Shown here: positions 6,684 through 58,785 of the stretch, piece after piece
Layout of the letters: every line of letters begins with the position of its first letter
Numbering within the stretch: the first letter of the stretch is position 1
Program-made: the position numbers and the translations under genes
Assembly (NCBI GenBank): GCA_026874595.1
Contig: CM049320.1
Span: 20,407,714-20,471,713, forward strand
Source of the DNA: Sipunculus nudus
Lineage: Eukaryota > Annelida > Sipuncula > Golfingiida > Sipunculidae
Direction of reading: 5' to 3'
DNA length: 64,000 nucleotides
Notes under the pieces: generated by a model
What the model was told of the DNA's origin: nothing
Database searches by the model: none
What the model saw: only the letters and a program-made list of their open reading frames with translations

Positions 6684-8942
6684 TCACAGATTCTTTAAAT
6701 CGAGATAGCAAAGCGCTGCTTCCCTTGGCTTTCTCTGAAAGATACGAATGTTAAGTGTTGAGTTCATTTGCTCCGAAAAGTCCATGGGGGATATACAGGA
6801 AAATCCACATTGTGAGTAAACACCGTCCGTCTGCTGCTCAGGTGAACAAAGACGGTGAAGTGTCTTCCTCCCGTTTTCTTCAGCAGAAATTGGCCAGTAA
6901 ACATAGACCTGGTCACAGCCGGTGTCTCTGACAGAGACATTCACGAACATATCGGGCAGGGGGAACAGGAAGTCAAGATGTACACTCAGCATTTCCGGGG
7001 GATGAGCCGGAACTGGAATACAGGAACTAGGCATATTCCCTTCCAGAAATGACGGGTCACCAGCTGTCACTTTAATGACAGGATCTGAAGGCAAAAGAGG
7101 TGTATATTAACTATATTTATTATACTTATATATATATATTTATATATATTATATATATATATATACATATATATAAATTATAGTTTATTTATGATTTTAA
7201 GTCCAAATGTGACATAAGATGATGTGTGAAAATAATATTATAATAATTGGTGTTCATCTTATATTGTGCCTTGAAATAACTTTACACCTTTCTCAGAAAT
7301 TTCAATATTTTGATATGTTTTATTCTTTTATTATAAAAAGTTGTAAATTCATCATAACACAAAGGTATATTGTATCATAATAAAATCATCTTAACAATTG
7401 ACGTTCAACCTCTGTTGATGTGGACCAAAACAGCTTTGGTTCTCCGATGAGCTTTGTTGATGGTTATAGTATATCCGATGACAAGGTTCGGATCATAGAC
7501 GTCCGCCACATGAGAAGGTTTAACCGCTAAGCCACAACAATCCATTGATGTCCTTGGAATGATGCCGCCACCACTAGCATCCATACTATGAACGCCTATC
7601 ACTTGACCCACACGGGCCGGATACCTGTCGGATTCGGGTACCGTGAAAACCTGGATGGTAAAAGCATGTATTGCAGAATATCTATTAATTAAATATGTTA
7701 AAACTCATAACACTCATGTTTAAACAAAAAACAATATTAAACTGCTGTCCGATAAAGAAGGGAAAATAAGCAGCGATATTAACAAGAGTATTATTTTGGA
7801 AATCATCCAAAAAATTATCCTACATATAATGACAAGCATTCTGTTATGCTACAAGTATGGGGTCAATAATTAAAAAAAAACTTGGTTACAAAAAAAAATC
7901 ATAATATGAAGTGCGTATCTTATCTGTCTAGATTTTTGGTTACCTTTGGTCCTAAAAAACTTTATTTTCTATAAGAATGTACTGGATTTATGTTATAATT
8001 TTTCCAAAATGACACCGTTTCGATTCTGCTTTTAGATCTTATACTTTATTCTAATAACAAGACAAACCGAATATTAATATCTTGAAATAAGTCAGAGTAT
8101 TAAACTTGATATTGCTCTTCCCGAATGAAAGATTTAATGATACCAACCTGTCGTCCGACTGCCATCACATTAATGTATGTTTTGTTATGAAGACGATAAC
8201 GCTCTTGTTCAAGAGGATCCCACAAACTCAATATGATAGTTCCAGTCTTCTTGGCGACAAATTCCCAGGCCACAACCGTGCCAGATACGTTTACAACTAC
8301 AGACGGGTGAATGGTCAACCAGTCCCCCTGGGTCTCTGGGAGGTCAATAGCAGCAGTACCCGACTTGTAAATCACTTCAAATCAGGAGATAAATCTCTTA
8401 TTTTTAAATTTAAATACATCTTTTTTAAACTATATCGTCGAAAAATTGAAAAAGGAGCCTCTCCCTAGTATTTAAGAAGCAATACACAGTTGAACAAAAA
8501 AAGGCGATAATGGGGGATAAGTTATGGAATGTATGACATTTAAAATAAAGTCAACGTCTGAAGTAAATGTCAGATGTAATTCTGTCAATTTTCGGTAGTA
8601 TCATGCATTAAGGTCAGGTTTAAAAATCAGCCATCAGAAGATTAAAAACATGACACAAGAAAGGAAAAGTAACAAAAATGAAGGAAAAATTATGTTCAAT
8701 TCTTTAGCACAAAACAAATGAACCAAATATTCATTTTGAAATAAACTCATGAACCCCTATATGTCTTCCTGCCTAATGGTGGACGCTAAATCATAATGAC
8801 AAATATCTTATTAAATAATCAGCAGTAACGAAATGAAAATACAAATTCGAATAAAATGCAGTACATTTGCATGGAAAATACCTTGCATGGATGTAGACAT
8901 AGCGATCGCCAACATCACAACAAACAATTTCAGAAGCTTCAT
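6684..8942 (-). CDS. SP309-A: secreted protein of an unrecognised family, 4 exons, 309 aa, intact
   Basis: Minus-strand coding exons are 8942-8882 (61 nt), 8374-8148 (227), 7650-7410 (241) and 7084-6684 (401). Junction phases are 1, 0 and 1, all introns are GT-AG, and the joined frame is open to the stop. Exon 1 encodes only a signal peptide (residues 1-20, MKLLKLFVVMLAIAM...). Exons 2 and 3 (21-176) encode a module starting with YKSGTAA, with VSGTVVAWEF, SLWD, NKTYI, and later RYPARVGQV, DCCGL and LVIGYT. Exon 4 (177-309) encodes a second cysteine-containing region with LFPLP, NVSVRDTGC, VYVYWPISAEE, CGFSC and LNIRI. Sequons include NVSG, NKT, NVSV and NST. The protein looks extracellular, soluble and beta-rich. 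I recognise no named domain. It reminds me of modules in uncharacterised molluscan secreted proteins, but that is memory, not a search. It lies between the two MCT genes, in the opposite orientation. Confidence 0.85.
7125..7170. repeat. (TA)n microsatellite in SP309-A intron 3
   Basis: Short interrupted TA tracts in the 325-nt intron between exons 3 and 4 of SP309-A. Confidence 0.85.
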
Positions 8943-11185
8943 GATTCGTGCAGTGCTGCTTGACTTGTCCGAACTGATAAATTTGCAGCGGGCAATGGTG
9001 CCTGATGTGTATATTGCCCGAACCAATCGTGTGACCTTTCGAGTAGATCTTCGCCATTGTAACGAGGACCATTGAATTATTTAGTAGTGCTTTGTCATTC
9101 CAGGGAACCCAGTGATTTTTTTTCCATCCAACGCGGTTTGGATGTGTGCCCTAGAGAAAGTACTTGCAATCAATTACCTTCACGTAGGCACTTCTATTGA
9201 GAAATATTTTCAATCGTTCACAACGGGGATACCTTTGTTCCCAGGTATTACCCAGCGGCACAGTTTTAAGAACCAGGCCTACAGATCAATGTATCTACAA
9301 ATGTCTCAAGTGCAGATATATCAATAATTGATAAAGCTTGCCTAATAGGGACTTGGTGTGGGGGAACTTTCTTGAATTAATGGCTGAAAAAGTATTATTG
9401 CTAGAAAGGAAATACATAAATTGAAAAACTCAATTCTGTTATGCATAAATGTTAATGTTATTAAAAATAGAAAGGCAACTCTTTAATTGTCTAATTCATA
9501 TTTATTACTAGACGCTTGAGTTAATAATCTAAACTATTGACAAATGTAACAAAATAAGTTCAATTTATAGGGATTGGACACAATGAGACATATACAATAT
9601 ACGAAATAGCGTCACTCCTTGAAATTTAAAGCGGTTTGGCTCACTCCTGTAGACGAGTGTTAAAAAAGTGGACCGGACGCGATAAATAGCGCTTACATAA
9701 AATAAGCCACTTGCGTTCTTCGTTTTTCATTTCAGGCCCACAGCCGGTACTTCTAAACCGTGCACGTTAATGTTTGGACTACTCCTTGCTTGGGATCTGT
9801 CACCCATGCGCTAAGTCGGATCTCTGGTCACAGGGGCTAGTTATGGAAAACAGAAACGTGGACCGTATTAACGCACACGCAGAACCAGAATAAAATGTGT
9901 TAAGCAGCTAAAAGGGAGGCACTGAGACGGTGTGCTGGGATGGTTTCGCTTGGAAACTTTGTACAAAGCAAAACTGAACTGATAGTTTGAAAGAATGAGT
10001 AAAATATTGCTCCTGATTAATCCGCTTTAGTTAACTTTCCAAACAATTTGTAAACGTTTAAGTTCTGACACCGTCTCATTTACTTATAGGAATTCACAGC
10101 ACCCCAAAGGTCGACTGCAGCATTCCCGTTTTTAATATATGTATAAAATTAAACAGTAAACTGCATTTTTTTATCCTCATAACCGGCATTGTCCTAGTTA
10201 AAGAAAAAATAATATCATGAAACGTAAAATTTATCTGTCAGGTCAAGCACATTCTTAAACCTCAGAATGTTTGAGGATTAATAAAACCCATAATGACCTC
10301 GCCAGAGGATGAATCAAATCAGGTCCAATCAGAGATTAATTTATAATCTAGTCGTTATCACAGTAAGATGTATGCGGACAGAACACAGCACATTCATAGC
10401 TAATCGGCTTTGTGTAATCACCAATGTTCAGCGACTGTGAGCCCGGTTAGTGCAGGAAAATACCGCTGTGTCTCTCCCTGCAGGGGTAACGCGGCCACAA
10501 TACTTTAGATAGCCCTTTCCTTACGTTTTGCAATGTTTCTGCTCCCGTGAAATCGTCTACTAAATCATTCCAACGCATACAATCGAACAGATACATACGT
10601 TAACGCATGAGAAGGTAGACAACGCGAGAAAGAGATGAAATGTGTTAATATATGTTGGACATGCTCTAAACGCATTGCACATACATAAGTTAGGAAACGC
10701 ACACATAAATGCAGAAATATAAACAGCAAAATGTGAAATATTGCACGCGAAATAATCGGACATCCCTGAAACGCACGCATGTCGCCTGTCTTTTAAACGT
10801 CTTCTCGGTCGCGTCAAATAATCTGCACAACGCTGAATCTTGAGGGTCCCTTAACGCTTATCGTCCATGCGTACTACCGATTTCCTTTATGCCCGGGTCG
10901 CATTGTTCAATCTTTAAAATTTGCCATGGGTGATCGGGTCCGAAATGTAACACTTGTTCCAGATAATGACCTGACAGTCATAATAGTTTCTTACAACGAG
11001 GTTAATCTATTTACATACTTAGCTACAGAGATTATAGGTTCCTCTATCATATGGAGCACTTTGGCCTCACATGTGGCATTATTATATCGATTTACTTAAG
11101 TATTAACTGTTCCCTGTATGTAGTCGATGCACCTTCACTTCGTTTAGAAAGTAGACGGAATCTTATGCTAAGGTAATTATCACTT

Positions 11186-11241
<56 letters not shown>

Positions 11242-11879
11242 GATCATTTATACATGCTTGTGAGCAAATGTTAATCTTATGTCGTTCCTCATATAAACGT
11301 ACAGATCAGGAGTGTAGTTTTTATATTTAAATGGACACAATATTATTAGTTTTAAGGAATGGGATAAATGAGGGATGTCATAGAGATTACTCATGGTTAC
11401 CTTGAACTATCAGGGTCCCACGTTATTGACCTTGTGAGTCACGTGTGACACTGTTTTAATGCGTTCATGTAAACTTCAAATTAAACCTCTGATAATACTC
11501 CAGCAATTGCTTGTGGCATGGATCCTACCACAGAAACAGAAAGGTATTTGCCCGGACAAAAATTGGATACGGGTTCCATAAGGATCCAATACTCACCTGT
11601 TGACAAGGGAATTAAATACAATGGAACAACACCTTGCGACAACACCACAATTGCGACCACCCCACAATTGCAACCATCCCACAATTGCGATAATTTTTTG
11701 AAGTCTCAAATATTTTCAGTGTTATTACATTTATAAATGTCCCAGAAGCGTTACCAGCCAAAAATTCTGAATTCAGGAGTAATAGTTAGCATATGCAAAA
11801 TCATCTACTAAAAAATATATGATAAAATCCTAGCCATATTACATATAACATATTACAAGAGTATCCGAGTTTAAGATCG
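8943..11879. other. Intergenic between SP309-A and MCT-B, no gene seen
   Basis: This interval should hold the divergent upstream regions of SP309-A (minus) and MCT-B (plus). A (TA)n tract is at about 11190-11230. A small 17-bp tandem repeat built on CCACAATTGCGACCA occurs about three times at 11645-11692. The open frames at 10560-10817 and 11481-11736 have no recognisable protein character. Confidence 0.5.
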
Positions 11880-14800
11880 ATGGCGGAACAGGAAGAGAAG
11901 TCAAAGCCGGAAGGTGGATATGGATGGGTGATAGTAACGGCTTGTACTCTTCTCAACTTCATGGTGTCTGTTGTGTTCGTGGTTCCTGGTGTCTTCTTGC
12001 TAGAGCTTGCCGAGTCCTTTCAAGTTGCAAATGCAGAGGTTGTCCTAATCGGTACATTCTCAGTTGGTGCTACTGGCGTGTTCGGTGTGTATATATACCA
12101 TTTGTTAAATATCTGTTTTAAAGCTGAAATAAAATGTAGCCATTTGTACCAAACATGTGTTTGCCTGTAATATATTACATGTCTAGTTGTAATAAAAAAC
12201 GATGGTTTTTCATTTTACATACATCAGGCATTATCATTGCATAGCGCCTATTGTCGAAACACAAAGACTTACCTGAGATATACCTGAGATCTTAAAAGGC
12301 CTTTCACCATTTGCTTTGATTAAATTTTCAGGGATATTTTCTGGCGTCCTGGAGAGGCAATTTGGGTGCAAGTATCTAACAGTGATTTGCGCGTTTATAG
12401 TCGCATCCGGAGAAGTTGTATCAGCCTTTGCACCGAATATATATACTTTGTATATCACGAGGGGCTGTACCGGAGGTTAGTCATATTCGATAACCACGTT
12501 AATATAAAAATCTTCGTAGAATAACACTTTGTAAAAAAATAATATTTTTGGAAACATAAAATAAAATAGGTGGGTATAACGATCAAAATTTCCAAATACA
12601 GCTTTCATTGTGAAGATCTATAAATGAATTTGGAGGATTATATTATTGGGAGGTATCCAATTAACCGTACTATTTTTTATTCATGGTGACGATTAATATG
12701 CCTAAGTTATATGTTTTAAGAGAAATTAAAATTGGAGGAAAAATCTCTGACATTGATGAAATGATCATTAATTCATCGTCTCTTTCATAGAAGAAATAGG
12801 AACATCAGTTTACAATAGATGTACTTTTCGAACATTGACTCCCATTTATCGCATGCCATGATATATCATCAAATATGTACTGGATTCTATCCCAGAGCAA
12901 GCACGACAAAATGAAGTGCATACTGCAGTGTAAAAAATGTTAGCGAATCATGTCTATAAGTTATTGTCCCTGTGTTCTCATTTCCCTTTTGCAAGAAAAA
13001 TTTGTCTACGATAAAAATAAATTCCATGTACTCTGTTCACTTATATGAAAATTACCTGGTTTAATTCCGTCTACAGGTATATTTGCAGCATGTGTGGGTG
13101 TGACCACAATGATCCCGATAACCCAGTATTTTGACAAGAAGAAGGGTTTTGCTCTATCCATGAGAACAGTAGGGACAGGCCTGGGTATTTTTCTCTGGCC
13201 CCCTCTCGTGCAATTCCTGATTCATAGTTACACTTGGCGGGGAGCCACGATGATTCTTGGTGGCTTGCATCTGAACAGCATAGCTCTTTCTTTGTTACTT
13301 ACTCCTCCACCCGGAAGTGCAAGGTACGCTGGGAAGACAAAATGCCACTGTACCCTAAAATATCTTTTTGACTACACTTTGCTGAAAAACCTTTCATTTC
13401 TTTTCTTAGCATTAGCGTTTGTTACAGCTTTAATCGGGCATGGGACACCAATTAACTTTCTTCCTAGCCTGGCTAAAAGTCGTGGTATTTCTCCTTCGAA
13501 GAGTGCATGGCTAGTGTCCATTATAGGACTCTGCAGTTGTATTGTACATCCATTCTGTGGAATATTGGCAGACAAAGCCGGGAAATACCAAGCACAAATA
13601 TTTGCCATTACGGTGATCATTACCGGATCCTTGGTGGTTGTGCAATCACAGTTATATCGCTTTACCGTGTTTGCAGTCGTGAGTGGTGCTATAGGTGTGT
13701 TCAACAGTAAGTGTACATTCTTAGTTACACTATAAGCTTCTTTATAAATTGAGCAATCTTTGTATTTAACATATTCTTAACGTGCGTCAGCAAATTAGTT
13801 TGCATACAACTAAATAAAGATAGAAATGATGTATTATAAACCAATAGAACTGCACCGTATCTCAGTAAATTTGAGTACATATTCAACGTTACACCGATAA
13901 CACTTTTCCTACTTATAACAAATATCACAGCTAGATGAATTAAGTTTAACCATAAAAAATCTAAAAGTAACAAATTGACCTTACCATAAACTATACGTGA
14001 CGACATAATAGCATTTTTGATCGTATGAATAATTATGAGCAGAGCAGATTTGAGCAACCAATCAGGTTACCGTTCTCACTGTAAACAGTCAACCACCTAA
14101 CAAGTGCCAAATTTACATATTTTGAGCTATGCCTCCATAAGCAACAAGATAACCGCCCGTCTCAATCATTGTTCGCATGTTTCCAGCGAGTTTTTATACA
14201 TATGAGTATACAAATTTATGGCCTTATGGTTGTAGCAGATTTTCTGCAGACTCTCTGAATTTGTATTAGACCAATAACCATAAATCAAACAAAGAAACTT
14301 CAGAGTGATTGCGATGTACCACAGGAGAACAGAGATAAAAACAAGCAGTTCAAGCAGATGACATCAAACAATGTAAAGTTATAATCGGCTTATAAACAGC
14401 TCATGGAACCAAAGACAAGATTTTTTTCTGTGTAGCAGTGTTTTTGATGCTCATCTCTGGAAGTAATCATGAGACATCTGCGGTAATGTTACTCAGCCTG
14501 AATTTGAACCACTAAATGTCATCTTGGCTAGGACGGCGTTTTTATCTGGGTGCATCTGTTAAACATTATACGTACAATCGTACCAATTGGGGCAAATCAC
14601 ACGAAAGGGGCAGTGCTTAACCAGTACAACACAATGTAATCATGGTTATAATCGTTTTTCATCAATGCTTGTTTAATATAATGTTTTACTTATTACTGAT
14701 TGTTTTCTGTAGGCAATTACCTTGTCCTTTTTCCAACACTACTGAGTGAAGTTGTGCCAGCTCGACAGATATCTACTGCTTTAGGCCTGACAGGAACAAT

Positions 14801-18493: not shown

Positions 18494-18733
18494 ATCTTTT
18501 GATCCAAATCAAAATGACATTGGTTCTTTGAGATGCCTGGTTGCATGTCACAGTATACCCGACGGGGAGGCTAGAGTCATAGACACACTGTTCGTGGGCA
18601 AATGTGATATGGAACCCACAACATTCTACTAAAGTTTTTTTTAATAATGCCGCCACCATTAGCGTCCCATGCTGTGAACGCCAACCACTTAACCCATGCT
18701 GGCTATGTATCTATCATATTCGATCGTACAAAC
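18494..18733 (-). pseudogene. SP309 relic: exon 3 only
   Basis: Minus-strand remnant of SP309 exon 3, 240 nt against 241 in intact members. The acceptor AG is retained just above 18733. Recognisable pieces are DRY, VVGVHSM, a Cys-Cys-Gly, VYDSSLPVGYTVT, and a final Arg-Thr-Asn-x-Ile-Leu stretch. Damage: the codon after the first glycine of the VGQV region is a stop (GGT TAA), a frameshift falls in the glycine-rich stretch, and the donor is lost (GATGCT in place of GGTT). No exon 1, 2 or 4 is visible nearby. It lies about 2.0 kb downstream of MCT-B, the same relation SP309-A has to MCT-A. Confidence 0.8.
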
Positions 18734-19273
18734 CTTGAGCAACATATAAAAATAGGAAGGTTATGGTTGTGCATAAATTTTCCAAGCTTATATAACTTCC
18801 AATGCATATGTAAACAGAAAAAAAACAGTCTCAGGTTGATACATAATCATTTGCCCTTGAAATTAGAGATACCCATATAACTTGCTGCAAACTTATACAC
18901 GCTTTGCAAGTGGCACATATTTTTGTGATATTTCAATGGATTAAAGGAATCGGAGCTGTTTTCTGTATTTTATATTCAGAATAACTTTTACTTCATGTAA
19001 ACATTAATTATTAAACGAATTTTCTCTAATAACACCCACCATCTTAAATACGAATACAACATTAAAGAATATTGAGAAATAGTTTTTTGACCTTTGGGCA
19101 ATTGCTTGTAATCATAATAATTTGCATGAAGATATGCCGATAAGAGCCAAAGGAAAAAATTACTTCACGCCATATTTTTTAAACCCCTCTTGCAAATAAT
19201 ATTTGTCTCTTCGAAGATTTATGTGTTCTTTTTGGTACCAACTCAAAGTCAGCTGATTTTAAACGGGGAGATG

Positions 19274-19329
<56 letters not shown>

Positions 19330-32239: not shown

Positions 32240-33752
32240 TTAAACATTTACCATGTTAAGAGAATGAAGGCTCACTGCCTCTCCAGGAGGCTGTAAGATA
32301 CGGATATTGATCGTAGACTTCATTCGCTCAGAGTTGTGAAAGTCCGAGTAACAAGAGAATCCACAGTGTGTGTGCTCTCCATCCAAACGGTTCTCTAAGC
32401 GACAAAGCCGGTAAAGGACTCCTCTTCCCTCTTCTTCAGCAGATAATGGCCAGAAAACATAGACATGGTCACATCCAGTGTCTCTTACAGACACATTCAC
32501 AAAGAGGTCGGGCAGAGGGAAAAGGTAGTCAAGATGAACACGGATTATTCCAGGAGGAAAAAAAGGTGCCTGGACAAATGTACCAGCCATGCTACCCTCA
32601 GGAAACCTGGGATCTCTTTCAGTCACTTTAATGATTGGACCTGAAAAAAAATCGTGTGAACTTCAGACAAAATAGATTTGCAATATCCTTAAATACCGCA
32701 TGGATTGGCATAAGGACATGATCGGAACATAAATTTGCCACGACAAATTTAATAATAAACACGTTTCGTAATAAAAAGTAATAAAATAGCAAATAGTTGA
32801 TTATAAAATACTTAATAACCTCGTTTGATGTGAACCAAAATGGCATTGGTTCTTCGCTCTACTCGGTTGTTGGTCACGGTATACCCTAAAGGGAGGTTAG
32901 AGTCATAGACAAGCTGAACATGAGAAGGTTCAGTCTTTAAGCCACAGCAGTCTCCAGTTGTCCGTGGAATGATATCGGTACCACCAGCATCGATGCCGTG
33001 AACTCCAACCACCTGACCGACACGGGCCTCGTATCTCTCATTTTCGGGTATTGTGAACACCTTTAAACATATATGAACCAGACTAACAGTGCTGCAATGG
33101 TAGGTATAATCTACGCTCTTTCAAGACACATATAAATATTGTAACTAGTAGTATATCTGACGGATACTTGTTTTATTGTACAGTAGTTACTTTTAACATC
33201 ATGAAGAAATTATTATATACATATTTAATTTTTTTTTTATAAAAAAAGTAAATTACATATTGTTAATAGACTTTTACAATTACGTAAGCTTTACACATTT
33301 TGATGATCTATGGATCTATCAGATAATTCTACATTATGTCACTTGATAAAATAAAATAAAATCTTAAGGATTTTAACTTTGTTACGAATCACTTGTATGT
33401 CTAACAAAGGTCGTTGGTATAACATTATAGAGGCTTTTATTTGTTCGAGTGATCGCCTATATGATGTACAGATTGTTAAGGCAAGTTAATATAAAAAATG
33501 ATAACCATTGGTGCAAATTGCATGAGAGTACTGGAACGCAAGATTCGACCCAAGCTACCTTATTAACTCTAGCTGGCTCTTGATGACTAAAACTTCCATA
33601 AATATAGGGATAAATAGACAAAGTATATAATTATTTTGACACGAACATCATATATTACAATTTTACAAAAAAATGAATCCATATCTATTTTGAAAAAGAG
33701 GGTAGAGAGAAATATTTTATTTAACATAAAGTAATTCTCTCTTATATATATG

Positions 33753-33805
<53 letters not shown>

Positions 33806-36105
33806 ATACAACATATAATTTGTTTTTGTCAGGAGACTTGTGTTTGTATAGTATAAATTATCCAGGCTTTGATGGATATTTCCACAACACTCAATATAAT
33901 TACTTAACGTTTTAACAATAGATTATATTGCTCGAATTCATTCTAGACAGTGATGGGAATAGAGAATCATAGAGTTAAATCATTAAAGTCATATAAACAG
34001 TCATATTTATGGTAGAGCTGTTAATTTAGTTGACAATTCAATTGTTTGATAATTAATGCTTATTTTTAATAACTTGAAAATACCTTGCACCACTATTTGA
34101 CAGATAGTATAAATATATAACATTTTTTTGTAATAATTAAGTAAATAAAAAAAAGTCTCATTCAAAATTGGTAATAAAGTAATGTCACTTAAAAGTAATA
34201 GATGAGAAACTGTGGCAATAGTAAATTAGTAATAGCAATAGCAAAATAATAAAATAAAACTAAAAGTAATGTTTACATAAAAAAATTGAACTAAACCCAA
34301 CCCTGATGAGTATGTTCACATTTTTGTTCAGACTAAACATCCAGGAGGCAACATGAGCAGTGAACTGTATACACTAAACAAATATCTAACAATGTGTAAT
34401 GATTTTGGAAAGACCCATGCTCAAATTTTATAGAGTGCATTCACCACTGTGTGATGCATTTTTGTTATCAGATTTTTCATATGTGTGTTTATTGAAAATA
34501 AACAATGTAATACCATGCAAAAATGCAAAAGTAATTCAAATTACTTCAAAAGGTATTTGTAATTGTAATCGATTACTTTTTAGAAAACACCAAAGTAATT
34601 GTAATTGTAATCGATTATTTTTAAAAGTAATTGTATTTGTAATCGATTATTTTAAAAGTATTTGGACCCAACCCTGATAGAGACAATACTTCTCCTGTGA
34701 TTTACTTTATACAGAATATTAAGATTCATGAACACTCGAGGATAATGAAATGAATACCTACCTGGTGGCCCACTGAGGTGACAGTGATATATGTTTTGTT
34801 GTACAGACGGTATCTGTCTTGTCCAAGGTTATCCCACAGGCTTAATACTGTCTTCCCTGTCTTTTTCGCAACGAACTCCCAGGCTACGACTGTGCCGGAC
34901 ACATTAATACCAACAGCGGGGAGAATGTTCAGACAGTTGCCTTGTGTCTCTGGCAAATCCCTTGCAGCGCTACCTGACTTGTAAACAACTGTATAAAAAG
35001 GGTAGAGTTATAAGTAGGAATTACGATTTACTGGTATCGTGACAATGGAGGCCGAAATAATATGTATTGAGCAAACCGTCGTTTATGAACCAAGGTCATG
35101 AAGGACACGTTTCGTGACTCTTTTCTTCGGAGCACGTTTCATCGGTGTCTCGACGCAATGGTTACTAGCACAACAGGTCGTGATAATTTTCCCAGAAAAG
35201 ACACCGTAGAGACCGTTTAAACCATAAGACCGGGATATATGGCTTCTGATTCCTTCATTAATATTTCTTAAACTACTTAAATGGTAACCGAAAAGGTTCG
35301 ATCTTACCTACCGAACCCCCTTTGCCCACTCTTAAATAGGTTAATATTATTAGATAATGGCGTTAATGAATATATATAACCCTTAGGTACTAAGGACAAG
35401 TAACAGAAATCAACTTTTTTATTTTGTAATCATTCATTAATTAGAAACGTATAATTTACATAGCAATTCTCAAATTCTACCAACTTGAATTTGTTATTAC
35501 GTCGATAGATTCTTGCATTATTTAAAAAAGTATGCAGTTTTGGTTTTCACTAAACAACAAATACAACCACAAATAAGAAATAAAGTCACAAAGAGGTATG
35601 AAAAAAGATGTCATGCAATGCATATATGTGTGTGAATGCATTTGAAATGTTACGTCCAACCATCCAATATTGCTCCTCTACATTACATGACAATCATATG
35701 CTGTTAGGCGTTTTATAGACGCCGAATAACATGACTTCTTGCATCACATACAGAAGTAGCAGTTAAATAACCAAATGGCGGCACATTCTTGCCTTAGGGT
35801 GTCGGACCCTTCGAATTTATATGATTTATAAGACACTGAGTTTGCAAATGTTTGAATTTTTTCACAAGCCCAACTAATGAATTCTCTCCGAAAACGCGTT
35901 GACATTGATAATAAAGCAAATGTTGTTTCATGAAGCAGTCACACATTTCCGGATAAATAAAACAAATATAATATCTAATTGAATAGAACAAACAGTTATT
36001 ACAGTAAAACACAATTAATTGTGTGAGTTTTGTATGAAATTCACCTTCCAATGAGTTCGACATATGTATTGCCATGATCACACTCAACAATTCCAGACTC
36101 TTCAT
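32240..36105 (-). CDS. SP309-B: secreted protein of the SP309 family, 4 exons, 309 aa, intact
   Basis: Minus-strand coding exons are 36105-36045 (61 nt), 34988-34762 (227), 33060-32820 (241) and 32640-32240 (401). Sizes and phases (1, 0, 1) match SP309-A, introns are GT-AG, and the frame is open from ATG to TAA. Exon 1 encodes a signal-like peptide (MKSLELLSVIMAIHMS...), less hydrophobic than that of SP309-A. Exons 2 and 3 carry YKSGSAA, VSGTVVAWEF, SLWDNLGQDRY, NKTYI, then YEARVGQVVGVH, GDCCGL and LPLGYTVT. Exon 4 carries LFPLPDLF, NVSVRDTGCD, VYVFWPLSAEEEG, CGFSC and INIRI. It lacks the last cysteine of SP309-A and gains one in exon 2 (GNC). Intron 2 is long (1701 nt) and holds a TA microsatellite and a hAT-like element. 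The flank up to about 41.5 kb is collinear with that of SP309-D. Function is unknown; secretion is inferred. Confidence 0.85.
33745..33808. repeat. (TA)n microsatellite in SP309-B intron 2
   Basis: TA tract with TGTATGTA and TTTA interruptions, inside the 1.7-kb intron. Confidence 0.95.
34290..34680. mobile_element. hAT/MITE-like element ends in SP309-B intron 2
   Basis: The sequence holds repeated AAGTAATTGTAATTGTAATCGATTA words. The motif CCCAACCCTGAT occurs twice in the same orientation, at about 34297 and 34669. I associate CCCAACCCTG ends with an internal GTAATTGTAATCGATTAC body with non-autonomous hAT elements. A left-end candidate, CAGTGATGGGAA, is near 33949, but I could not find a convincing 8-bp target duplication, so the boundaries are uncertain. 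SP309-D lacks this stretch in its 542-nt intron 2. Confidence 0.4.
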
Positions 36106-41794: not shown

Positions 41795-41905
41795 AGAGAT
41801 GGAACTTGAATACCCAGTAAATCGGTTCACTGCCGATGGAAATCAAACCCATGATGCTCCTATTTCCGGTCGGCTGCTTAAGCCACTAAGCTACGACAGA
41901 TACCA
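41795..41905 (-). repeat. tRNA-derived SINE head
   Basis: On the minus strand there is an A-box-like TAGCTTAGTGG (41893-41883) and a B-box-like GGTTTGATTTC (41849-41839) at a spacing typical of tRNA internal promoters. I see no foldable complete tRNA with a proper anticodon arm, so a SINE is more likely than a functional tRNA gene. A GA-rich simple repeat abuts it at 41788-41800. Confidence 0.5.
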
Positions 41906-43093: not shown

Positions 43094-44889
43094 AGCAAAT
43101 AGAATTTTGAAAGACTAAGATAGGGATTATTATTGAAAATGGCGGGCTGTACCATGCACGAAGGATCGCATTTTGCACCGAACGACCTTTCGACTTGACG
43201 TCATAGTGTCTATGACGTCGACCTTCATGCGGTTTTGCGGAATTCTTGGGTAGGGCGAGGCGTACTGCTCTGTACTACGGCCACACAGGGCATCATGGTT
43301 ATAATATTACTAAATATCTAATCAGAATGAAGATACACTGTTCCTGGTATTATGGACAATATGCTTTGTCATTCCATCATATTTGACATCTCTTCACACG
43401 TTCCCACTTGATTTACCACCTAATGAAGAAGCCCTGGGCCTTTCGAAAGCTTGTGTGTTGATAAACAAATTAGTCTATCTAAAAGGCGTCACTCTTAATC
43501 TTTACCTACGCTTCTATATTTCAAGAAATACTTCCATTGGCGATGGCGAGTCGTGAGTGTAAACAAGTTTCAGCTTGTAATATCGTACGTGGAAGAAACT
43601 CATCATACAGACCAATTATAAAATTAAGAGTCCAGAAATTGAAATCCGATTTCCTATTTACGTCAGCATGACGTGTCAGCAAAGCCGATTTCTCTCTGTG
43701 TGCAAAACAGATGTCAACGCAAAAACGAGTTTCGCCCCACTGCATAATCTTTCTCTCTCACTCTTTTTTCTCTGAAAACATGTTTTGGTGAAGACGCTCC
43801 TCGAACGCTGAGACATTCCGACACGTTCGGTTTATTAACGTCGTAACAAAGCTTGCGCTAGAGTTCATATCGCATATTAGAAGAGATAAAGCACATGCCA
43901 GCGGCACTGGAACACAGGGAGTTACAAAGGATTCCCCCTAGGACGACGTGACCTCATTAATATTAAGAATAGGATGACCTAGGCGTGACCTGTGATGTGC
44001 TGCGATGTGGCACACTTATGTCTGCGGAAACAAAAGTCTGCTGTGTAGGGCAAACAGGTATTTTAGGCCACGCACTATTCGGTCGGTTTACCACTTTTAT
44101 ACCAATGGTACACGCAGATATGATTTTGATATGACATTTCACGTTTCCTTGGTGCAGAATACTGACAATAATACTGCATTGTATATCTTTAATTGGGAAT
44201 TTGTTATAAGAACTCTAATGCTCATGTATTGAATATTGTGGCTCTAATAATGACAACAAATGTAAATGCGTTAATGAAGATTTACTGAAACAAACAAAGA
44301 AAATTCATGACTAATTATCACTGTAGCTGTGTCTGAATAAATGACAATGGAGCCATAAATACCAATACATAAGCATTAATGCTGCTCTATGAACTGTGAC
44401 AAGAAAATGACTATATGCCACGCGTGGAAGTAAAGAGAAATATACTCTGAACCAAGCAAGTCTCAAACAGGTAAGGCTCAGGTAAATTCTAATTTCACTG
44501 AATATTATGCAGGGAAATAACATTTTAGTGGTATGACCTAAGTTCTGAATGATACAAGTTATAACAGGAATGGCAATAAACTCAAGGTGGTTAAACTTCA
44601 GCAAAACAAAACTGTCAAGTTCAAACATACCGAATTACTGACCCTGTGTCTTATATAATAGGCAACATGTTCCTACTAAAACTTACTATTTTGTCAAACA
44701 CCCACTCTACGACCAACCATGGCTGTCTACCGGATGTTTCAAGATGGCTGAGGTTCGGTCCCGTTTGTTATGCTTTCTGCGTTTGCCATAAAAAACTAAA
44801 GGACTTAACAACCTTCACCTTAGTCTCTAGCTGCCTGTCTCAGTTACCATAACGACCTAACTTAACACTTAAAACATAGACCTAACCAA
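43094..44889. other. Intergenic, no gene seen
   Basis: It includes GC-richer stretches at about 43140-43270 (with a TGACGTCATAGTGTCTATGACGTC inverted repeat) and 43520-43800 that look like interspersed-repeat sequence. The minus-strand frame at 43521-43745 is unsupported. No RNA gene is seen. Confidence 0.4.
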
Positions 44890-45045
44890 AGAAAATCCTC
44901 TAAAAGTAATATTAACGTTCCTGTCTTCATAGCGACAAATTCCAAGACTACAATTAAGCCAGATACATTAACAAGAACAGTTGGCCAGCTTGTCAACCAG
45001 TCGATCGGTGTGCCTCCCAGGTCTATTGCGGCTGTGGCCAAATTA
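44890..45045 (-). pseudogene. SP309 relic: exon 2 only
   Basis: Minus-strand remnant of SP309 exon 2, with the acceptor AG retained just above 45045. It matches the family through AAIDL, a DWL/VNVSG stretch, EFVA-KTGT and a degraded ILLL. Damage: a short deletion removes the YKSG start, and the last third of the exon, including the NKTY sequon and the donor, is gone. No other exon is recognisable beside it. In details such as AAIDL and DWLT it resembles SP309-A more than B or D. Confidence 0.8.
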
Positions 45046-46548: not shown

Positions 46549-47610
46549 TCAAATATTTACTACATCAAGAGAATAGAACCTCACCGCCTCTCCATGAGGC
46601 TGTAAGATACGAATGTTGATCGTAGACTTCATTTGCTCAGACTTATCAAAGTTCGAGTAACAGGTTAATCTACAGCATGTGTGCTGTCCATCCAAACGTT
46701 TCTCTTAGCGACAAAGCCCATTAGGACTCCTCTTCCGTCTTCTTCAGCAGATATTGGCCAGTAAACATAGACATGTTCACATCCAGTGGCTGTTACAGAC
46801 ACATTCACAAAGAGGTCGCGCAGAGGGAAAAGGTGGTCAAGCTGGAAACTGAGTATTCCAGGAGGAGGAGAAGGTACCTGGACGAATGTACCAGCCATGC
46901 TCCCCTCTGGAAACCAGGAGTCCCTGGGTGTCACTGTAATGATTGGATCTGAAGATACACCATGTAAAAGAACTTCAGATAAAATAGATTTGCAATGTAA
47001 TTAATTATCTTATAATCTGGCATAGGGACATGACCAGATCATCTTTTGCCACGGCAACATTTATTTAATCAAAACACTTTTAAAGATTTGTAATAAATAA
47101 ATAAATAAAAATAGCATATAATTGATAATAAACTACTTAATAACCTCGTTTGATGTGAACCAAAATGGCACTGGTCCTTCGCGCTAGCCGGTTGCTGGTC
47201 AAGGTATACCCTACAAGGAGGCCAGAGTCATAGACTTTCTGTACATGAGAAAGTTTAGCCTTTAAGACACAGCAGCCTCTAATAGACCGAGGAATGATAC
47301 CACCACCATCAGCATTCATGCTGTGAACTCCAACCACCTGACCGACACGGGCCTCGTATCTCTCATTTTCGGGTTTAGGGAATACCTTGAATCATATATG
47401 CACTGAGTGCTGTAATCATATGCAAACTTTCAAGAGATATTATCACTGGTAGTTTATTTGACTTGTATTAATTGTAGGATTACACAATAGAAGATAGGTA
47501 TTTGATAATATTAAAAGTTTAATCCTATCACATATTATACAGATTCAGACCCTGTTAATATATGTCATATATTAACAATATGAGATAGGTATAAAATCAA
47601 TATAACACAA

Positions 47611-47651
<41 letters not shown>

Positions 47652-48142
47652 ATTAATACAATATATGCATAACGTTATAATGGTCAACTAATCGAGAACA
47701 ACATTCATTGTGTCACATAACCTGTGGTAATTTTATAAATCCTTATAATTTTAGCTATATTTTAATTTCTTGTTTGGTTTACATAAGGTTTTAGGTATTT
47801 GGTGATAATACACTAAGTCGACAATACTTCAGGTGTCGCTTTTGCTTTATATACAGTATAAAGATTTAAAACATTCCAGGATAATGCATTAAATGTTCTT
47901 TCTTCATCCAAATAAATCCGGCCCACTTATGTAACTGTGATGTGTGTGTTGTTATACAGACGGTATCTGTCTTGTCCGAGTTTGTCCCACAGGCTTAACA
48001 CTGTCTTCCCTGTCTTTTTTTGCAACAAATTCCCAGGCTACGACTGTTCCGGGAACATTGATACCAACAGCGGGGAGAATGTTCAGACAGTTACCTTGTG
48101 TATCTGGCAAGTCCCTGGCAGCGGTACCTGACTTGTAAATTA
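46549..48142 (-). pseudogene. SP309-C: broken SP309 copy, exons 2-4
   Basis: Minus-strand exon remnants are exon 2 at 48142-47915, exon 3 at 47385-47145 and exon 4 at 46948-46549. Exon 3 is an intact 241 nt with good splice sites. Exon 2 is 228 nt: one extra A in the AAAAAA run after WEFVA shifts the frame, a TAA replaces the serine codon before VGxQ, and the donor is lost (CGGATT in place of CAGGTAGG). Exon 4 is 400 nt: one base is deleted in the GRGVL region, giving a stop 20-odd codons later. No signal-peptide exon is visible between 48142 and 50333. The lengths agree exactly with one insertion and one deletion relative to intact members. A non-functional copy is the simplest reading. Confidence 0.88.
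47609..47651. repeat. (CA)n-(TA)n microsatellite
   Basis: CA dinucleotides change to TA, in the intron-2 equivalent of SP309-C. Confidence 0.95.
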
Positions 48143-48210
48143 CTTTCAAACAAAGGTAGAATTATAAAATCGAAACTATGACTCACTGTTATCATGACAC
48201 ATAACCCAAA

Positions 48211-50333: not shown

Positions 50334-50640
50334 AGTAGAAGCAGTTGAATATGGCTTGAATACGAATTTCAATCATATTTATCTTTAAAAATTATAGTAA
50401 AAAAGCAATTTTAAATTAACGTATTTATACCCATCCAGCATTTAATGTTCAACTTGAGATAAATAACTTCACGGGAGATCGATTTACGTTCCTTTAATTT
50501 CAATCAATATTTACTACGGTCTGTTGTTAGCAATAATGCAAAACAGTATATTTATAAGTTTTATTGACAGTAAAGTACAATATTTAATAGACACACCTTT
50601 CAGTTAAGCAAAAGATTTCATTGTTGTAGTTCAGTCCATT
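50334..50640. repeat. 3' flank of SP309-D, near-identical to 46022-46335
   Basis: Counterpart of the SP309-C flank; both stretches begin GAGTAGAAGCAGTTGAATAT. Confidence 0.85.
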
Positions 50641-51889
50641 TCAAGCGATAAAAATGCAAGCAATATGAATAATCTGCACATTTGAATAATGCAGTATATA
50701 AAGAATAAAATATGTATAAATGTGAGTACATAATTGTCATGCATGTCGTCCGTTGTTCACTTCTAGTCACGTTTGCATGCAGTGTGTATCAGCTTTCTTA
50801 CGTTTTACATTGTTTCAGGGTATCCCTTTAAGATTAGCCAGTGATCCCTCTGAAGCTAAAATATTTACCAAGTGAACAGAATAAAGCCCCACTGCCGCTC
50901 CATGAGGCTGTATAATACGAATGTTGATTGTGGAGTTCATTCGCTCAGATTACTCAAGATCCGATTAACAGGTGAGTCCCCAGCGTATGTGCTCTTCAGC
51001 CAAATGATTCTCAAAGTGACAACGTCGATAAAAAACCCATCTTCCGTCTATCTCAGAAGAGACTGGGCAATAAACATAGACGTTGTCACATCCGATGCTT
51101 CTTGAGACACATTCACAAAGAAGTCGGGCAGAGGGAAAAGGTAGTCAAGCTTGACACTGAGTATTCCAGGAGGATGAGAAGGTACCTGGACGAATGTACC
51201 AGCCATGCTGCCCTCAGCAATGATTGGATCTGAAGGTACATAATGTAAAAAACTTTGGATTAAATAGGTTTGAAATGTCCTTAATTATCGTATAATCTGG
51301 CAAAGGAACATGACCAGAACATCATTTGCCACGACTTTACATTTAATAAAAAAGCACGTTTATTGATTTGTAAAAAGAAATTAAATAAAATAGCATATAG
51401 TTGATAAATAACTATTTAATAACCTCGTTTGATGTGAACCAAAATGGCATTGGTTAATTGGGGTTTCATGTTGTTAGTCACGGTATACCCTTAAGGGAGG
51501 TTAGAGTCATAGACAAGCTGTACATGAGAAGGTTCAGTCTTAAAGCCACAGCAGTCTCCATGTGTCAGTGGAATGATACCGGCACCATTAGCATTCATGC
51601 TGTGAACTCCGACCACCTGACCGACACGGGCCTCGTAACTCTCATTTTCGGGTATCGGGAACACCTTCAATCATATACGAACTAAGTGTGTTGTAATGTT
51701 TGTGTGTAATATGAACACTTCCAAGACATTATGCCTGGTAGTGTGTTTGAATGATATAAATGTGAAGTACATAATAACAGATAGCTATCCGACATATAAA
51801 ACAGTTTATTTTTATCGTGTTATACAGATCCAGGCCCTGTACATATGTTATACATTTAACAATATCAAACCGTTATTAGATTAATATAA

Positions 51890-51894
<5 letters not shown>

Positions 51895-51926
<32 letters not shown>
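51895..51926. repeat. (TA)n microsatellite in SP309-D intron 2
   Basis: TA dinucleotide tract at the position equivalent to the B and C intron-2 microsatellites. Confidence 0.9.
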
Positions 51927-51934
<8 letters not shown>

Positions 51935-53184
51935 TATAAATATAACCCGGCTTTGCGTTTTAATGACATACTAATATATTAGAAAATTCATTTTGTCACT
52001 TAACTTGTAATGAATGAATAAATCCTTATAATTTAAACTTTGTGATTAATCACGTGGTTTACAGATATGTTTAGGTATTTGGTAATATTACACTAAAGCG
52101 ACGATACTTCAGTTTTGTCTTTTGCTTTATGTATAAGATAAAGATTTAAGAACATTCCAGAATAACGGTAACTATTCTTTCTTCTTTTAAAATATAGAGT
52201 ACCTACCTGGCGGCCCACTGATGTGACTGTGATATATGTTTTATTATACAGACGGTATCTGTCTTGTCCGAGGTTATCCCACAGGCTTAATACTGTCTTC
52301 CCTGTCTTTTTTGCAACGAGTTCCCAGGCTACGACTGTGCCGGACACATTAATACCAACAGCGGGGAGAATGTTCAGAAAGTCGAGTTGTGTATCTGGCA
52401 AGTCCTTTGCAGCGGTACCTGACTTGTAAACTACTGTAAAGGTAGAGTTAATTAGTAGGAATAACGACTTATTGGTATTGTAACAATGGAGGCCTAAATA
52501 ATATGCACTCAGCCAACCCTCGTTTATGAACCAAGATCACGAAGGACACGATTTTTGACTCTCTGGAACACGTTTTATCGATGTCTCGACGCAATGGTTC
52601 CTAGCACAACAGGTCGTGATAATTTGATCAGTAATAATGACACAGTGAAGACCGTTTTAAACCAGATGCCTTGGATATATGATTATGATTCAATCTTTAA
52701 ATATTTCTTAAAATACTTAAATGGTAACCGAAATGGTTCGACCTTGCCCACAGGATCCCCTTTGCCCACTCTTTGATAGGTTAATATTATTAGATGATAT
52801 ATATATATAATGGCGTAAACAAATATATATATATAATCATTATTTACTAAGGACAAGTTACAGAAATCAACTTAATTTATTTTAAAATAATTCATTAATT
52901 AGAAACGTTCAATTTAGGGAAAAAAATCTGTAATTCTACCAACTTGCATACGTTGTAACTTCGCTAGAGTCCTGCATTATTTAAAGAGGTTTGAAAAAAC
53001 GAGGTCATGCAATGCATATACCTCGTATGTCTGTGAATGCATTTAAAAAGTCAGGTCTATCAATCCAATCTTGCTCCTCCATAATGCATGACTATTATAT
53101 GCTGTAAGGCGTTTTATAGACGCCGAATTACTTGACCTTTTGCATCACATACAGCAATAGCAGTTAAATGACCTAATGGCGGAG

Positions 53185-53600
53185 ACGGCGTCTGATAACA
53201 GACGTACCAGGGTCAGTTGCCATTTACATAATTTTACTTGTGTATACATCGAAAGGCAATCATTACTTAGATCATACATATGTTTACATATGATTCGAGG
53301 CTTCCCTCCTGATTGCCTGACCTTTGACGCACAATCGTCCGATTAGAAAAACATCAGGGTATAGGACCTAGAGAATCAAAATGTCGGATGTCTCAAACAA
53401 ACCACTCAGTGTTGGGAACACTGCGCAAACAACAGACTTATGTTTAACAAAAATAAGATGATCAATCAACACGATTTTAAATCACATAATACGATATTAA
53501 AAAAAATGAATTTATCATATCCATTCCAAATTTAATACATATCATGTCCCTTTTAAAGGCTCCAAACTCAGGGCTTTCCCCACATTCTTGACTAAGCATT
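53185..53600. other. Insertion in SP309-D intron 1 relative to SP309-B
   Basis: B runs from AATGGCGGCACATTC directly to TTCGAATTTATATGATTTAT. D carries about 400 extra bases between the corresponding points. No coding features or clear terminal repeats are visible. Confidence 0.5.
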
Positions 53601-53903
53601 CCGGACACATCCGAATTTATATGATTTATATGACACATAGTTTGCAAATGTTCGAATTTTTACGAAAGCCGAACTAATGAATTGTCTGCGAATATGCTTT
53701 GACATTAATAATTAGGCGAATGTGGTTCCATAAAGCAGTCACACTTTTCCGGATAAATAAAACGAATATAATATCTAATTGAATCGGACAAACAGCTATT
53801 TTAGTAAAACACTATTAATTGTGTGTTTTATATGAAATTCACCTTCCATTGAAATCGACATTTGTATTGCCATGTTCACACTCAACAGTTCCAGAATCTT
53901 CAT

Positions 53904-56129
53904 TCTGAAGGCGAAGTTGCTTTTTAAATCAAAGCCAGCAGGTTTTACGCTGACCCTGGCAGGTAGTGCATTTGTTTTTATCCTAACTACGGCAATAGGA
54001 AATCCATTGTCATTTTAACAATGCAACTGGTTTCACCAATCGTCATGAAATGACTTGGGATTTTCTCAGGGGAATTCAGTTGAGAGGACTCCTTTGTTTA
54101 AACATAAACTGTCAACACTGTTAATGCCGGCAAATGTGGCGTGTTCAATCGCTTAAATGCATCATTCATTCGTTTGCCCAGTAAAAGTCAGTCAGCGACT
54201 CAGCCGTGTGTCACACAATACAACGTGTATAGAGCCCACAATAAAAAAACATTTACACTGAAGAGCCTTGCGTGTAGACAAAGGAATGATTACTTGATAA
54301 TGCCTAGCCAAAGGTAATTGTGTGTTGTGTTATGGTTGTTCTCCTTGGTGAAGAACAAAATATTTTTTTTGCAAAGAAACTTATGTTAACAAAATAAATA
54401 AATAACATTCAATTATCTGAGGAAACGCAATTTTCGCCACCGGGGCTAAATCGATATTTTTTTGGGTGTATGTCTAGCCTGATCGCTTTATGAAGTACCT
54501 TCAAATTATTTCCCCGACAGTGGAATATTCGTTTCTTCTGTGCAAAATTTTCTCAATCTAGACACGTATAAACTACTTTTGAACGTTAAGAATATTCTTG
54601 TGCTTAGCGCGTGTGATGGCCAGTTCTTCGCCTCTTTAGAGGATATATCTAACTGATGAGAGTAAAAGATCGATTAGACTGGTCGATTTTAGAGTATGTG
54701 ACAATAAATCTCTTCTGTTTGTCTTTCAAGCTAGTCAGATGAATTATTATTTCTGTTTCTTCTCATAAATGTCGCTAAAAACTTGTGTTATTGTCCGAAA
54801 TACTGTCGTGAGAAAATACTATTTCCGAAGAGTTTTTTTTTCATTCTGGCTGGCTAACTTAAATATCATGTAACATAAAGCCCTTCAATAATCCTATTTT
54901 GTTTTCTCTCTTCTGCTTTAGTTTTCTAAATAAAACCTGGTCAAGCTTGTGCATATTAAAGTCAAGAAGCAAGGTGCAGTAATCAGGATATCTTTTATTT
55001 AGCTGATAGACATAAGATCCCTGGTCACAGTGTCACCTATCAAACAAAAAACACATATATTGCGGAAATATATTTTATCCAGACGGCATATTTATGGTTT
55101 CATGCACACCCCTCGGTTAAGTTAATTTAAAGTCACCTTTCACTTAATGAAAACATGATTATGTCAGCAACGCATCTTAGTGACAGGGTAGTTATAAAAA
55201 TGATCTATTACATAACAAATGAATCTTTAAAGAGTTTCAGACGTTAAAAGGACCATCTTCTTCGATATTGGTGTATATTGTTTATTTCAGCGAAACAAAT
55301 CTACAATAAATATTATCATTCTTAAACCAACATACGTTATCTGGAACATATAATTTGTGCAAGTAAAACGTTGGTGGGAAAGTAAAAGTTTATTTGGACA
55401 GTGGATTAATATAGTTTTTGGAATGAAGGTCACAGTACTATAAGGTAACACGAAGGGGAAGTGGTTTTTACTCCCTATTGCTACAATAATTTTGCAAATA
55501 ATACAGGGCCGATTTTAAATGCGTGCCCAAGTGAAGAAGAAACTAGTTGTAACAGTTACTTTAGCGCTTCCGTAGAGGAAACCACTGTCTCATAACAAAG
55601 GCTACTACAAGGTTAGGTTACGGAAAGGAATCTATAGTCAAGCACCCCAGTTAGCCTCATCAGTTAATAGAAGGCATATATTGATGAGGGAGAATATAAA
55701 TGTACAGCTTTGTGAGTAAATTCAAGTTTGCAACTGCACAATGAAAACTTAAAACATAGGTCATCAAGCTAGTCAAAGGGAATTAAATGATGGTATTTTG
55801 TTAAATAACACCTGCTCTCTAATTCTTGTCAACCGTAGCTTTGAAACACCGTTTATTAAACAATGAATAATTCCGATATCAATTTTATAAGGTTATTCTA
55901 CCAAAACTCTCATGTAAGAATACAATTTTAGATTTGAATAACATAATATCTTCAAAAACTGTATCTAATTCTTCGTCTTTCCGGGTTTTATGTATTTTTT
56001 ATCTTTATAACCGAATTCATTCAAATAACAGTTCAAAAGGCTATATGCGTCATTCACGAAACCACCATATGTTTACATGATTTCGCCAATCATTTAATAC
56101 GATTTTTAATGTAAACCTTTTTTTTTAAT
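53904..56129. other. Upstream flank of SP309-D, duplicate of 36106-38464
   Basis: Non-coding sequence collinear with the SP309-B flank, with indels. No gene is recognised. Confidence 0.7.
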
Positions 56130-56312
56130 TTCATATGGATTGTTTAGATAATTATAATAACAACACTTTCAATGAGTCAGATGGTCGAGTGCTGCAGGCT
56201 GTAGGGAAAGAGGAAACCAAGGGACTGGAAGAAAACCGCCAACTTTGGATTGGGCACCCGTAAAGGCCAAGTTGGGAATCGAACCCGGCCGGGCAGCGGA
56301 GAGAGCCGAGCG
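56130..56312 (-). repeat. SINE-like repeat, copy 3
   Basis: It starts with ATGGATTGTTTAGATAATTATAATAACAA and contains GAGGAAACCAAGGGACTGG. GGGAATCGAACCCGG gives an excellent minus-strand B box, GGTTCGATTCC. It is orthologous within the duplication to 38465-38660. Confidence 0.55.
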
Positions 56313-57009
56313 TTTTTCTACTCTATTGTGTTAGATAATACATGTGATATGCAAACTTTTACGTTAGTGGTATATTTACCTGATACAATATTAGATAATG
56401 TTTAAAAGTGTGATATTTTCCTATTTACAAACGATTTACTTATGTTTTAGGCCTATATGTCCCTACCCTGTAAGTTTATTACATGATATGCAAAACCTGC
56501 TAGCACTTTCAGCTGCAATATTGCCTGCATGCATAACTCGAGGTGAATATCGATCGCTCAAATTGATTAGAAACAACAGCTGTAATGTTATCTCTCGCCT
56601 GTGCTTCAAAGACCATTACGTATTGATAAAACTGTGTGCTGTGCATAAAAATGTGGACGACAAGAAAAACGAGCACTCAGCACTAAATGGATTCTAGGTC
56701 CCATATTCACTGTAAAATAGATAACCCAAGGGAATAATATGGCGACGGTTTCTTTTCCGACATAATGACAAATACACTGTAAAATAAATATCTCAAGGGA
56801 ATAACGTTGCAATATAAGAACAATCTATATGAAGAAACTAGAACAAAACAAAAACACTGCTCACCTGTATTCGAAAAATGAAATATGGATTTTCTGAGAG
56901 AGAGTTTGCGTGCCTAAGTGTAAAGCTTTTGAAAATAAAAACAAATTTACCTCAGCAAGTAAAAGCAAGCAGACAAAAATGGTATGACTAGTTTTAGGAC
57001 AACCTTGCT

Positions 57010-57310
57010 CCAATAGGTGAACTATTAACAATATTTCAACATTTAAATTCCAATGGGTCAATCTGTCAACAGAATGACAAAATGTGAACTCCAAAAACTC
57101 TAAATGTTAAGTAAGTGTAAACATTTTAACTTCAGTAGGTCAAAATGTTACAAATTTTCAACATTTTAACCTCAATAGGTCAAACGGTTAACAGAATGTC
57201 CAAATGGTAACTCCAATAGGTCTAAGTGTTAGCGAAGGGTCAGAATGCTTACTCCGATAGATTGAAATGTAATCCAAAATTTCAACATTTGAAATCCAAT
57301 AGGTCTAAGC
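57010..57310. repeat. About 42-bp degenerate tandem repeat, AATAGGTCAAAxxGTTAAC type
   Basis: Six to seven degenerate units, related to 41340-41475. It marks the right end of the B/D homologous flank. Confidence 0.7.
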
Positions 57311-57344
57311 AATTCCAAAAGGTTAAAATTTTAATAAAGCTATA

Positions 57345-58184: not shown

Positions 58185-58785
58185 TGCCTGAATGACGCCG
58201 CCACCATATGTGTTCGTGACATGAAGGCGGACCACTAGGTTGTTATGGGCCTGTGCTTCTTGTTATCAGGTATGGTAAACACCTTAGTGAGATATATAGG
58301 GCTACATGTTCTTTACGCATGAAATGGGAACCTGTTGTATAGCATTATTCCCTTATGGCCTATTCATTTACATTCAGTATTAACAAAATCCACTTTGTCA
58401 TGTACATAATGTGAAATAAACAATAACATCTCTTCCACCTTTTTTCTAACTATAATATTGAAATGCACAGGAATAACTACATAATCTCCATAGAAAACCT
58501 GTCAAATGGATAAATCAAAACAATACTCAATTCTTATTGTTGTTATCTGAGAAAGACTATTTAACGAAATTATAAAATATACAAGGTTCATGATGAAGTA
58601 ACAAAAGTAATTGTTTTTTTTTAATACTAAGGTAAACGTTAACTGTTAATGGTAAGTAAACAAAACACCTCATACAAATTTCTTACCTGACGCCCTACGT
58701 GTTTCAACGTAATGTATGTTTTTAACCCACAGTGTAATCACTATCGTCCATGTCTTCTTTGCAACAAACTCACAGGCCACGACCA
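58185..58785 (-). pseudogene. SP309 relic: parts of exons 2 and 3
   Basis: A minus-strand remnant of exon 2 at 58785-58687 keeps VVAxEFVAKKT, a TLW and a donor GTAAG. A remnant of exon 3 at 58282-58185 keeps its acceptor and VFTIPDN, but then runs into TAG and out of frame in the VGVH/GGG region. The 404-nt intron between them is like the 497-nt intron of SP309-A. The 5' half of exon 2 and the 3' half of exon 3 are missing, and no exon 1 or 4 was found. It is the most distal detectable member of the array. Confidence 0.75.

Follow-up and report, generated by a model that had tools for sequence, protein, structure and literature searches.

The SP309 family of Sipunculus nudus is encoded in part in a 64-kb stretch of contig C15 (C15:20407714-20471713; hereafter the window) of a genome of 1.43 Gb in 153 contigs. 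As the best explanation, SP309 would consist of small secreted two-domain glycoproteins that serve as soluble ligand-binding proteins outside the cell—a combined claim to which we give an even chance. Its parts differ in strength: the family itself is held with high confidence, and the ligand-binding role falls somewhat short of an even chance. Secretion would follow from the peptide encoded by exon 1. The window contains two intact genes, A and B, which were rebuilt from the sequence and feature the following exons:

8882..8942, minus strand: gene A exon 1, signal-peptide-like, 61 nt (rebuilt model, hydropathy)
8148..8374, minus strand: gene A exon 2, first half of the N-domain, 227 nt (rebuilt model)
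7410..7650, minus strand: gene A exon 3, second half of the N-domain with Cys-Cys-Gly, 241 nt (rebuilt model)
6684..7084, minus strand: gene A exon 4, C-domain with CGFSC, 401 nt including the stop (rebuilt model)
36045..36105, minus strand: gene B exon 1, 61 nt (rebuilt model, hydropathy)
34762..34988, minus strand: gene B exon 2, 227 nt (rebuilt model)
32820..33060, minus strand: gene B exon 3, 241 nt (rebuilt model)
32240..32640, minus strand: gene B exon 4, 401 nt including the stop; residues 178-309 used for an AlphaFold2 model (rebuilt model)

Both genes comprise 309 codons plus a stop, have AG/GT at all internal borders, and encode proteins that are 61% identical without gaps; the exon lengths imply phases 1/0/1. 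Searching the window by tblastn with A and B yields 41 pieces at E ≤ 1e-3, all on the minus strand, a count in which the same place can occur more than once since both proteins were queries. The reversed window gives no match at E ≤ 1, and none of 20 first-order Markov windows gives one at E ≤ 1e-3. Five decayed minus-strand relatives together with the two intact genes make seven copies, and an eighth, a relic, lies on the plus strand. An earlier note on this DNA had described seven members or relics with exons of 61/227/241/401 nt in phases 1/0/1 and two intact genes of exactly 309 codons: both descriptions are borne out by the rebuilt models, the relics found, and the empty controls. No TATA-like box occurs in the 400 nt upstream of A or of B. 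AATAAA is found 136 and 380 nt past the stop of A and 362 nt past the stop of B.

The family extends well beyond the window, which covers only its edge. Used as a genome query, gene B exon 4 returns at least 38 matches grouped into at least 31 places, and the exon 2+3 query at least 75 exon-level matches, all genome match counts being lower bounds. Of the exon-4 places, 17 form a 231-kb minus-strand array at C15:20.414-20.646 Mb, and another is found at 20.68 Mb on the plus strand; the other 13 lie on C15 at 3.53, 3.56, 18.80, and 18.91 Mb and, six of them, at 18.37-18.48 Mb, with three on contig C7. Many of the array copies of exon 4 contain stops. The earlier proposal of a family that looks secreted, is copied in tandem, and undergoes birth and death is supported. 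The single orientation that it gave is true of the array but not of all relics and members, given that the relic at 61280-61468 of the window and the C15 members at 3.53, 3.56, 18.80, and 20.68 Mb lie on the plus strand.

Open exons 2–4 in the same order and of near-equal sizes were found in 12 of 20 fetched loci, giving 14 members with A and B. Their exons 2, 3, and 4 range over 218-230, 238-250, and 383-407 nt. Phases were imposed in this search and are equal by construction; the AG/GT borders were found rather than imposed in place. Outside the set stand eight loci with a stop, a missing exon, or a frame problem as modelled (L011, L013, L015, L016, L017, L020, L023, and L027) and the window relics C and D, which are described below. 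In L019:4422-5183 (minus strand), intron 3 (129 nt) is open in frame, so that a retained-intron reading is open as well. An exon 1 like that of A, B, and relic C, whose peptides were themselves the references of the search, was detected in five of 20 other copies (L011, L013, L014, L017, and L019); it is hydrophobic in A, B, C, and these five, as judged by a simple hydropathy rule only. Among the 14 members, the cysteines C134 (14/14) and C135 (12/14) are kept, as are C233, C256, and C269 (14/14 each) and C273 (13/14) of exon 4. The N-glycosylation sequons are kept at N49 in 13, at N84 in 12, and at N225 in 11 members. These counts, 12-14 of 14 for the cysteines and 11-13 of 14 for the sequons, agree with the conservation that had been claimed for both kinds of motif.

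Exons 2 and 3 encode the N-domain, which is not confined to SP309. The exon 2+3 query matches copies of the domain in a single open frame on contigs C3, C12, and C13. A profile of the 14 members aligns to a profile of six outside copies with an hhalign probability of 99.2% (E 2.2e-19, 133 columns), compared with 0.1% for the reversed profile and 0.1% for the exon-4 profile. Seven further outside copies reach 97.5% (E 8.7e-12) versus 0.2% when reversed, and a profile built from outside copies alone finds exon 2 and exon 3 of SP309 separately by hmmsearch. Positions common to both groups are W-R/D, G-D/Q-V-I-G-V-H, and I-I-P. At the level of sequence, exons 2 and 3 belong to a far larger, uncatalogued domain superfamily of this genome, with a homology above the reversed control. 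One outside copy used as a genome query gives at least 65 matches, most of them on C7, and another at least seven; the lists of 65 and 75 matches come from different queries and have a few matches in common. Three N-domain matches at C3:57861615-57878911 have equal score and identity and lie 8.47 kb apart, which would reflect either a triplication of very recent date or a repeat in the assembly.

The outside copies (L029-L039) are homologous to exons 2+3 of SP309 but carry the domain uninterrupted in one open frame, in some loci with PAN, kringle, laminin-G-like, or repeat exons nearby. In SP309, by contrast, a phase-0 intron divides the N-domain, downstream of which stands the exon-4 domain. 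The latter was detected neither in L029-L033 at E ≤ 1 nor in L032-L039 at E ≤ 0.5. In a scan of 15 outside open reading frames, none showed a Pfam match above cut-off over the N-domain; one gave a weak HphA_N listing there (E 0.3). Hand-picked neighbouring reading frames on the same strand contain Laminin_G_3 (L033, E 4.2e-13), Kringle (L039, E 2.5e-25), and PAN_1 (L036, E 1.9e-7; L038, E 5.2e-5; L035, E 0.0042, which is below cut-off). In L034, PAN_1 (E 1.9e-7) shares one open frame with the N-domain, a frame that may include an intron. An extracellular setting may be reflected in two observations: the hydropathy of exon 1 and the PAN_1, Kringle, and Laminin_G_3 neighbours in genomic reading frames. 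In L030:640-3357 (minus strand), three reading frames with a W-x-E-[AT]-G-C motif stand beside the N-domain frame, two of them ending L-C-x-G; they have no Pfam match and are possibly another uncatalogued extracellular repeat. A straight-through structure model of exon 2, intron 2, and exon 3 of L018 reached a predicted local distance difference test (pLDDT) score of only 37 and was discarded.

The family had been called unrecognised, and no family of Pfam, NCBIfam, PHROG, or the PDB sequences fits it. The full proteins A and B have no fitting Pfam, NCBIfam, or PHROG family, the listings being weak and short of the curated cut-off for those families that have one (NCBIfam PRK11627, E 0.058; PHROGs, E 0.36-0.39). 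Pfam likewise fits neither 17 exon-4 rows, with DUF4432 (E 0.0091) and five others listed weakly in single or paired rows, nor 32 exon-2/3 rows, with Stn1 and an OB domain as weak listings. Among PDB sequences, the exon-4 profile has no relative at E ≤ 10; the other matches are weak and chiefly of Ras type (best E 0.0077 for the full protein and 0.29-0.44 for exons 2/3). A Ras/Roc GTPase was considered and rejected: the scores of 16.8 and 15.6 bits lie below the cut-off of 27 (Pfam E 0.005-0.02; best PDB match Rab, E 0.0077), and the match, limited to some 50 residues at the short motif W-D-x-L-G-Q-x-R-Y, was judged a chance likeness. In IMG/VR and in GTDB contigs, which are not animal databases, no prokaryotic or viral relative was confirmed, in the latter also with an outside domain copy as query; this result does not bear on other animals.

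Exon 4 probably encodes a cysteine-stabilised domain with a β-sandwich fold, as judged by the AlphaFold2 model of gene B exon 4, which is of middling confidence (residues 178-309, pLDDT 63). Compared with PDB structures, the nearest folds of this model include carbohydrate-binding modules (the Cel5A module, CBM65B, and CBM22) and a clostridial collagen-binding domain, at 3-10% identity and with Z as for unrelated sandwiches; the modules have no sequence link to the exon-4 profile among PDB sequences. The collagen-binding folds, the secreted look, the glycosylation sites, and the high copy number in one array would also suit a structural extracellular-matrix protein of mucus, shell, cuticle, or egg coat, in which two β domains pack in a secreted layer and the many copies would raise the dose instead of serving recognition. 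Such a protein is rather unlikely: no low-complexity or repeat stretches are seen by eye in the 309 residues, and the conserved cysteines are those of single domains and not cysteine runs.

The β-sandwich model would also suit a reading of SP309 as diverged relatives within an already named family (C1q-domain, F5/8 or F-type lectin, or TNF-like) that escape its sequence profiles. F-type lectin and F5/8 type C domains belong to the same β-sandwich class, and many divergent exon-4 copies end L-C-x-[IV]-x-I, which resembles the end of F-type lectin domains. However, no such Pfam match was obtained for the two full proteins, the 17 exon-4 rows, or the 32 exon-2/3 rows: the C1q profile is absent from A and B at E ≤ 10 and from all rows at E ≤ 1, and F5/8 type C or F-type lectin from the exon-4 rows at E ≤ 1. 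With these negatives and no PDB-sequence relative of the exon-4 profile at E ≤ 10, a missed named family is distinctly unlikely. No F-type lectin, C1q, or TNF row stands among the 50 structural matches listed for the exon-4 model, a result that does not speak against a galactose-binding-like fold. The C1q-domain-containing proteins of bivalves are a secreted, tandemly expanded family according to a published account (PMC6835236), and SP309 is alike in outline, being secreted-looking and tandemly expanded. The kind is already known; the domain is without a name in the libraries used. No published account of the SP309 family was found in a literature search that lacked most subscription journals. 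Similar unnamed sequences are presumably present in mollusc gene sets.

The earlier note had suggested fast evolution, which is not supported by the ratios of nonsynonymous to synonymous substitutions (dN/dS); the role in immunity, matrix, or recognition that it offered is still conjecture. The pair A–B has a dN/dS of about 0.2 (0.21 with and 0.19 without exon 1) at a dS of about 1.3-1.4, near saturation, and the ten pairs among the younger open copies B, L009, L010, L012, and L014 have 0.31-0.54. Invariant columns among the 14 members number 28 of 297. Pieces of relics come closer to 1: against B, relic D has 1.11 (exon 3) and 0.78 (beginning of exon 4), although exon 2 of relic C has 0.34. 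In a maximum-likelihood tree, one branch (support 94/93) separates the six core-array members from the others, and B, L009, L010, L012, and L014 are grouped (100/99). On these ratios and the tree, the family history is one of birth and death under purifying selection, not of general fast evolution.

Tandem birth and death would be expected as well of gamete or self-recognition proteins kept by copy turnover, and exon 4 is indeed faster than exon 2 (0.39-0.49 versus 0.07-0.12 for B against L009, L010, and L012, with the B–L014 exon 2 at 0.56 as an exception to the slow exon 2). Yet an overall dN/dS above 1 occurs in only one open pair, L025-L026 (1.22 at a dS of 0.02), among the printed pairs (dS under 1.6); individual exons in certain close pairs are likewise above 1, with few changes involved. 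A role in gamete or self-recognition is improbable, and slightly more so than a missed named family.

The relics of the window and the duplicated segment are as follows:

50859..53903, minus strand: relic C; open in exon 2 (52431-52207), with one stop in exon 3 (51664-51424) and stops in exon 4 (51231-50859); its exon 1 lies at 53903-53843
46549..48150, minus strand: relic D; open in exon 3 (47385-47145), with a disrupted frame in exon 2 and a broken exon 4 (46948-46549)
18495..18722, minus strand: relic E, exon 3 only (tblastn)
44889..45035, minus strand: relic, exon 2 part (tblastn)
58669..58784, minus strand: relic, exon 2 part, frame broken (tblastn)
61280..61468, plus strand: C-domain (exon-4) relic, oriented against the array (9-kb scan, E 1e-7)
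50491..57247, no strand: segment largely duplicated from the gene-B region at 31.9-41.5 kb; the similarity is 70.6-85.5% over nine pieces, which are offset by 15.7-18.6 kb (self-comparison)

Six relics in 64 kb and the many array copies of exon 4 with stops could be read as a mostly dead array without present function, but this is very improbable with A and B open over 309 codons at a dS of about 1.4 and a dN/dS of about 0.2, and with 14 members open in exons 2-4.

Relics C and D would derive from segment duplications because, in the self-comparison, the gene-B segment is repeated and the stretch at 46.0-48.2 kb matches the one at 50.3-52.5 kb at 77%. For relic D, no exon 1 was found within 3.5 kb upstream. 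The plus-strand relic reaches E 0.077 by tblastn with A over the window and has a weak, frameshifted continuation to 61632 (E 0.075). Exon 3 of relic E is nearer to B, C, and D (158-160/240) than to A (147/240). A pairing of this 18.6-kb relic with gene A in an 11-kb duplication together with a transporter pair is at best possible: the spacing fits, but the sequence is nearer to B, C, and D. The transporters are two tandem genes of the major facilitator superfamily at 831-3527 and 11826-14850, both on the plus strand (PF07690, E 3.1e-24 and 3e-20), 78-83% alike in four matching pieces, with gene A between them on the opposite strand; they are presumably monocarboxylate transporter-like. A tRNA-like match at 41828-41900 (minus strand) scores 30.8 bits versus the Rfam cut-off of 29 and is not reported by ARAGORN; judging by the neighbouring reading frame, we take it to be probably the head of a short interspersed nuclear element. 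Two overlapping open frames at 42642-43114 (minus strand) have no Pfam match and resemble the reverse transcriptase of a Penelope-like element.

For SP309 as soluble two-domain glycoproteins, the parts would act together as follows. Exon 1 would encode a signal peptide that is removed on secretion. Exons 2 and 3, with the phase-0 intron inside, would encode one domain of a large extracellular superfamily, and exon 4 a cysteine-stabilised domain, probably a β-sandwich, whose cysteines C233, C256, C269, and C273 are probably engaged in two bridges. Glycosylation would occur at the predicted sites N49, N84, and N225. The mature proteins would serve in recognition outside the cell by binding a ligand—a glycan being the likeliest one—and the array would supply copy number and variants through repeated duplication and decay.

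Expanded secreted families house a large share of the invertebrate recognition and matrix toolkit. More tentatively, and on balance doubtful, the N-domain may be a ligand-binding extracellular domain, missing from the catalogues, of which this animal lineage has built up many dozens of copies, some of them next to PAN, kringle, and laminin-G-like partners, with SP309 as its soluble two-domain offshoot; this would constitute an undescribed recognition repertoire on the scale of the C1q or fibrinogen-related families. Annotation follows protein-family libraries, and a domain that recurs at dozens of sites in a single genome, with no Pfam family above cut-off in any of the 15 outside copies scanned, is an annotation blind spot that a profile model could close. 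In addition, the 309-residue form is small enough for expression and ligand testing.

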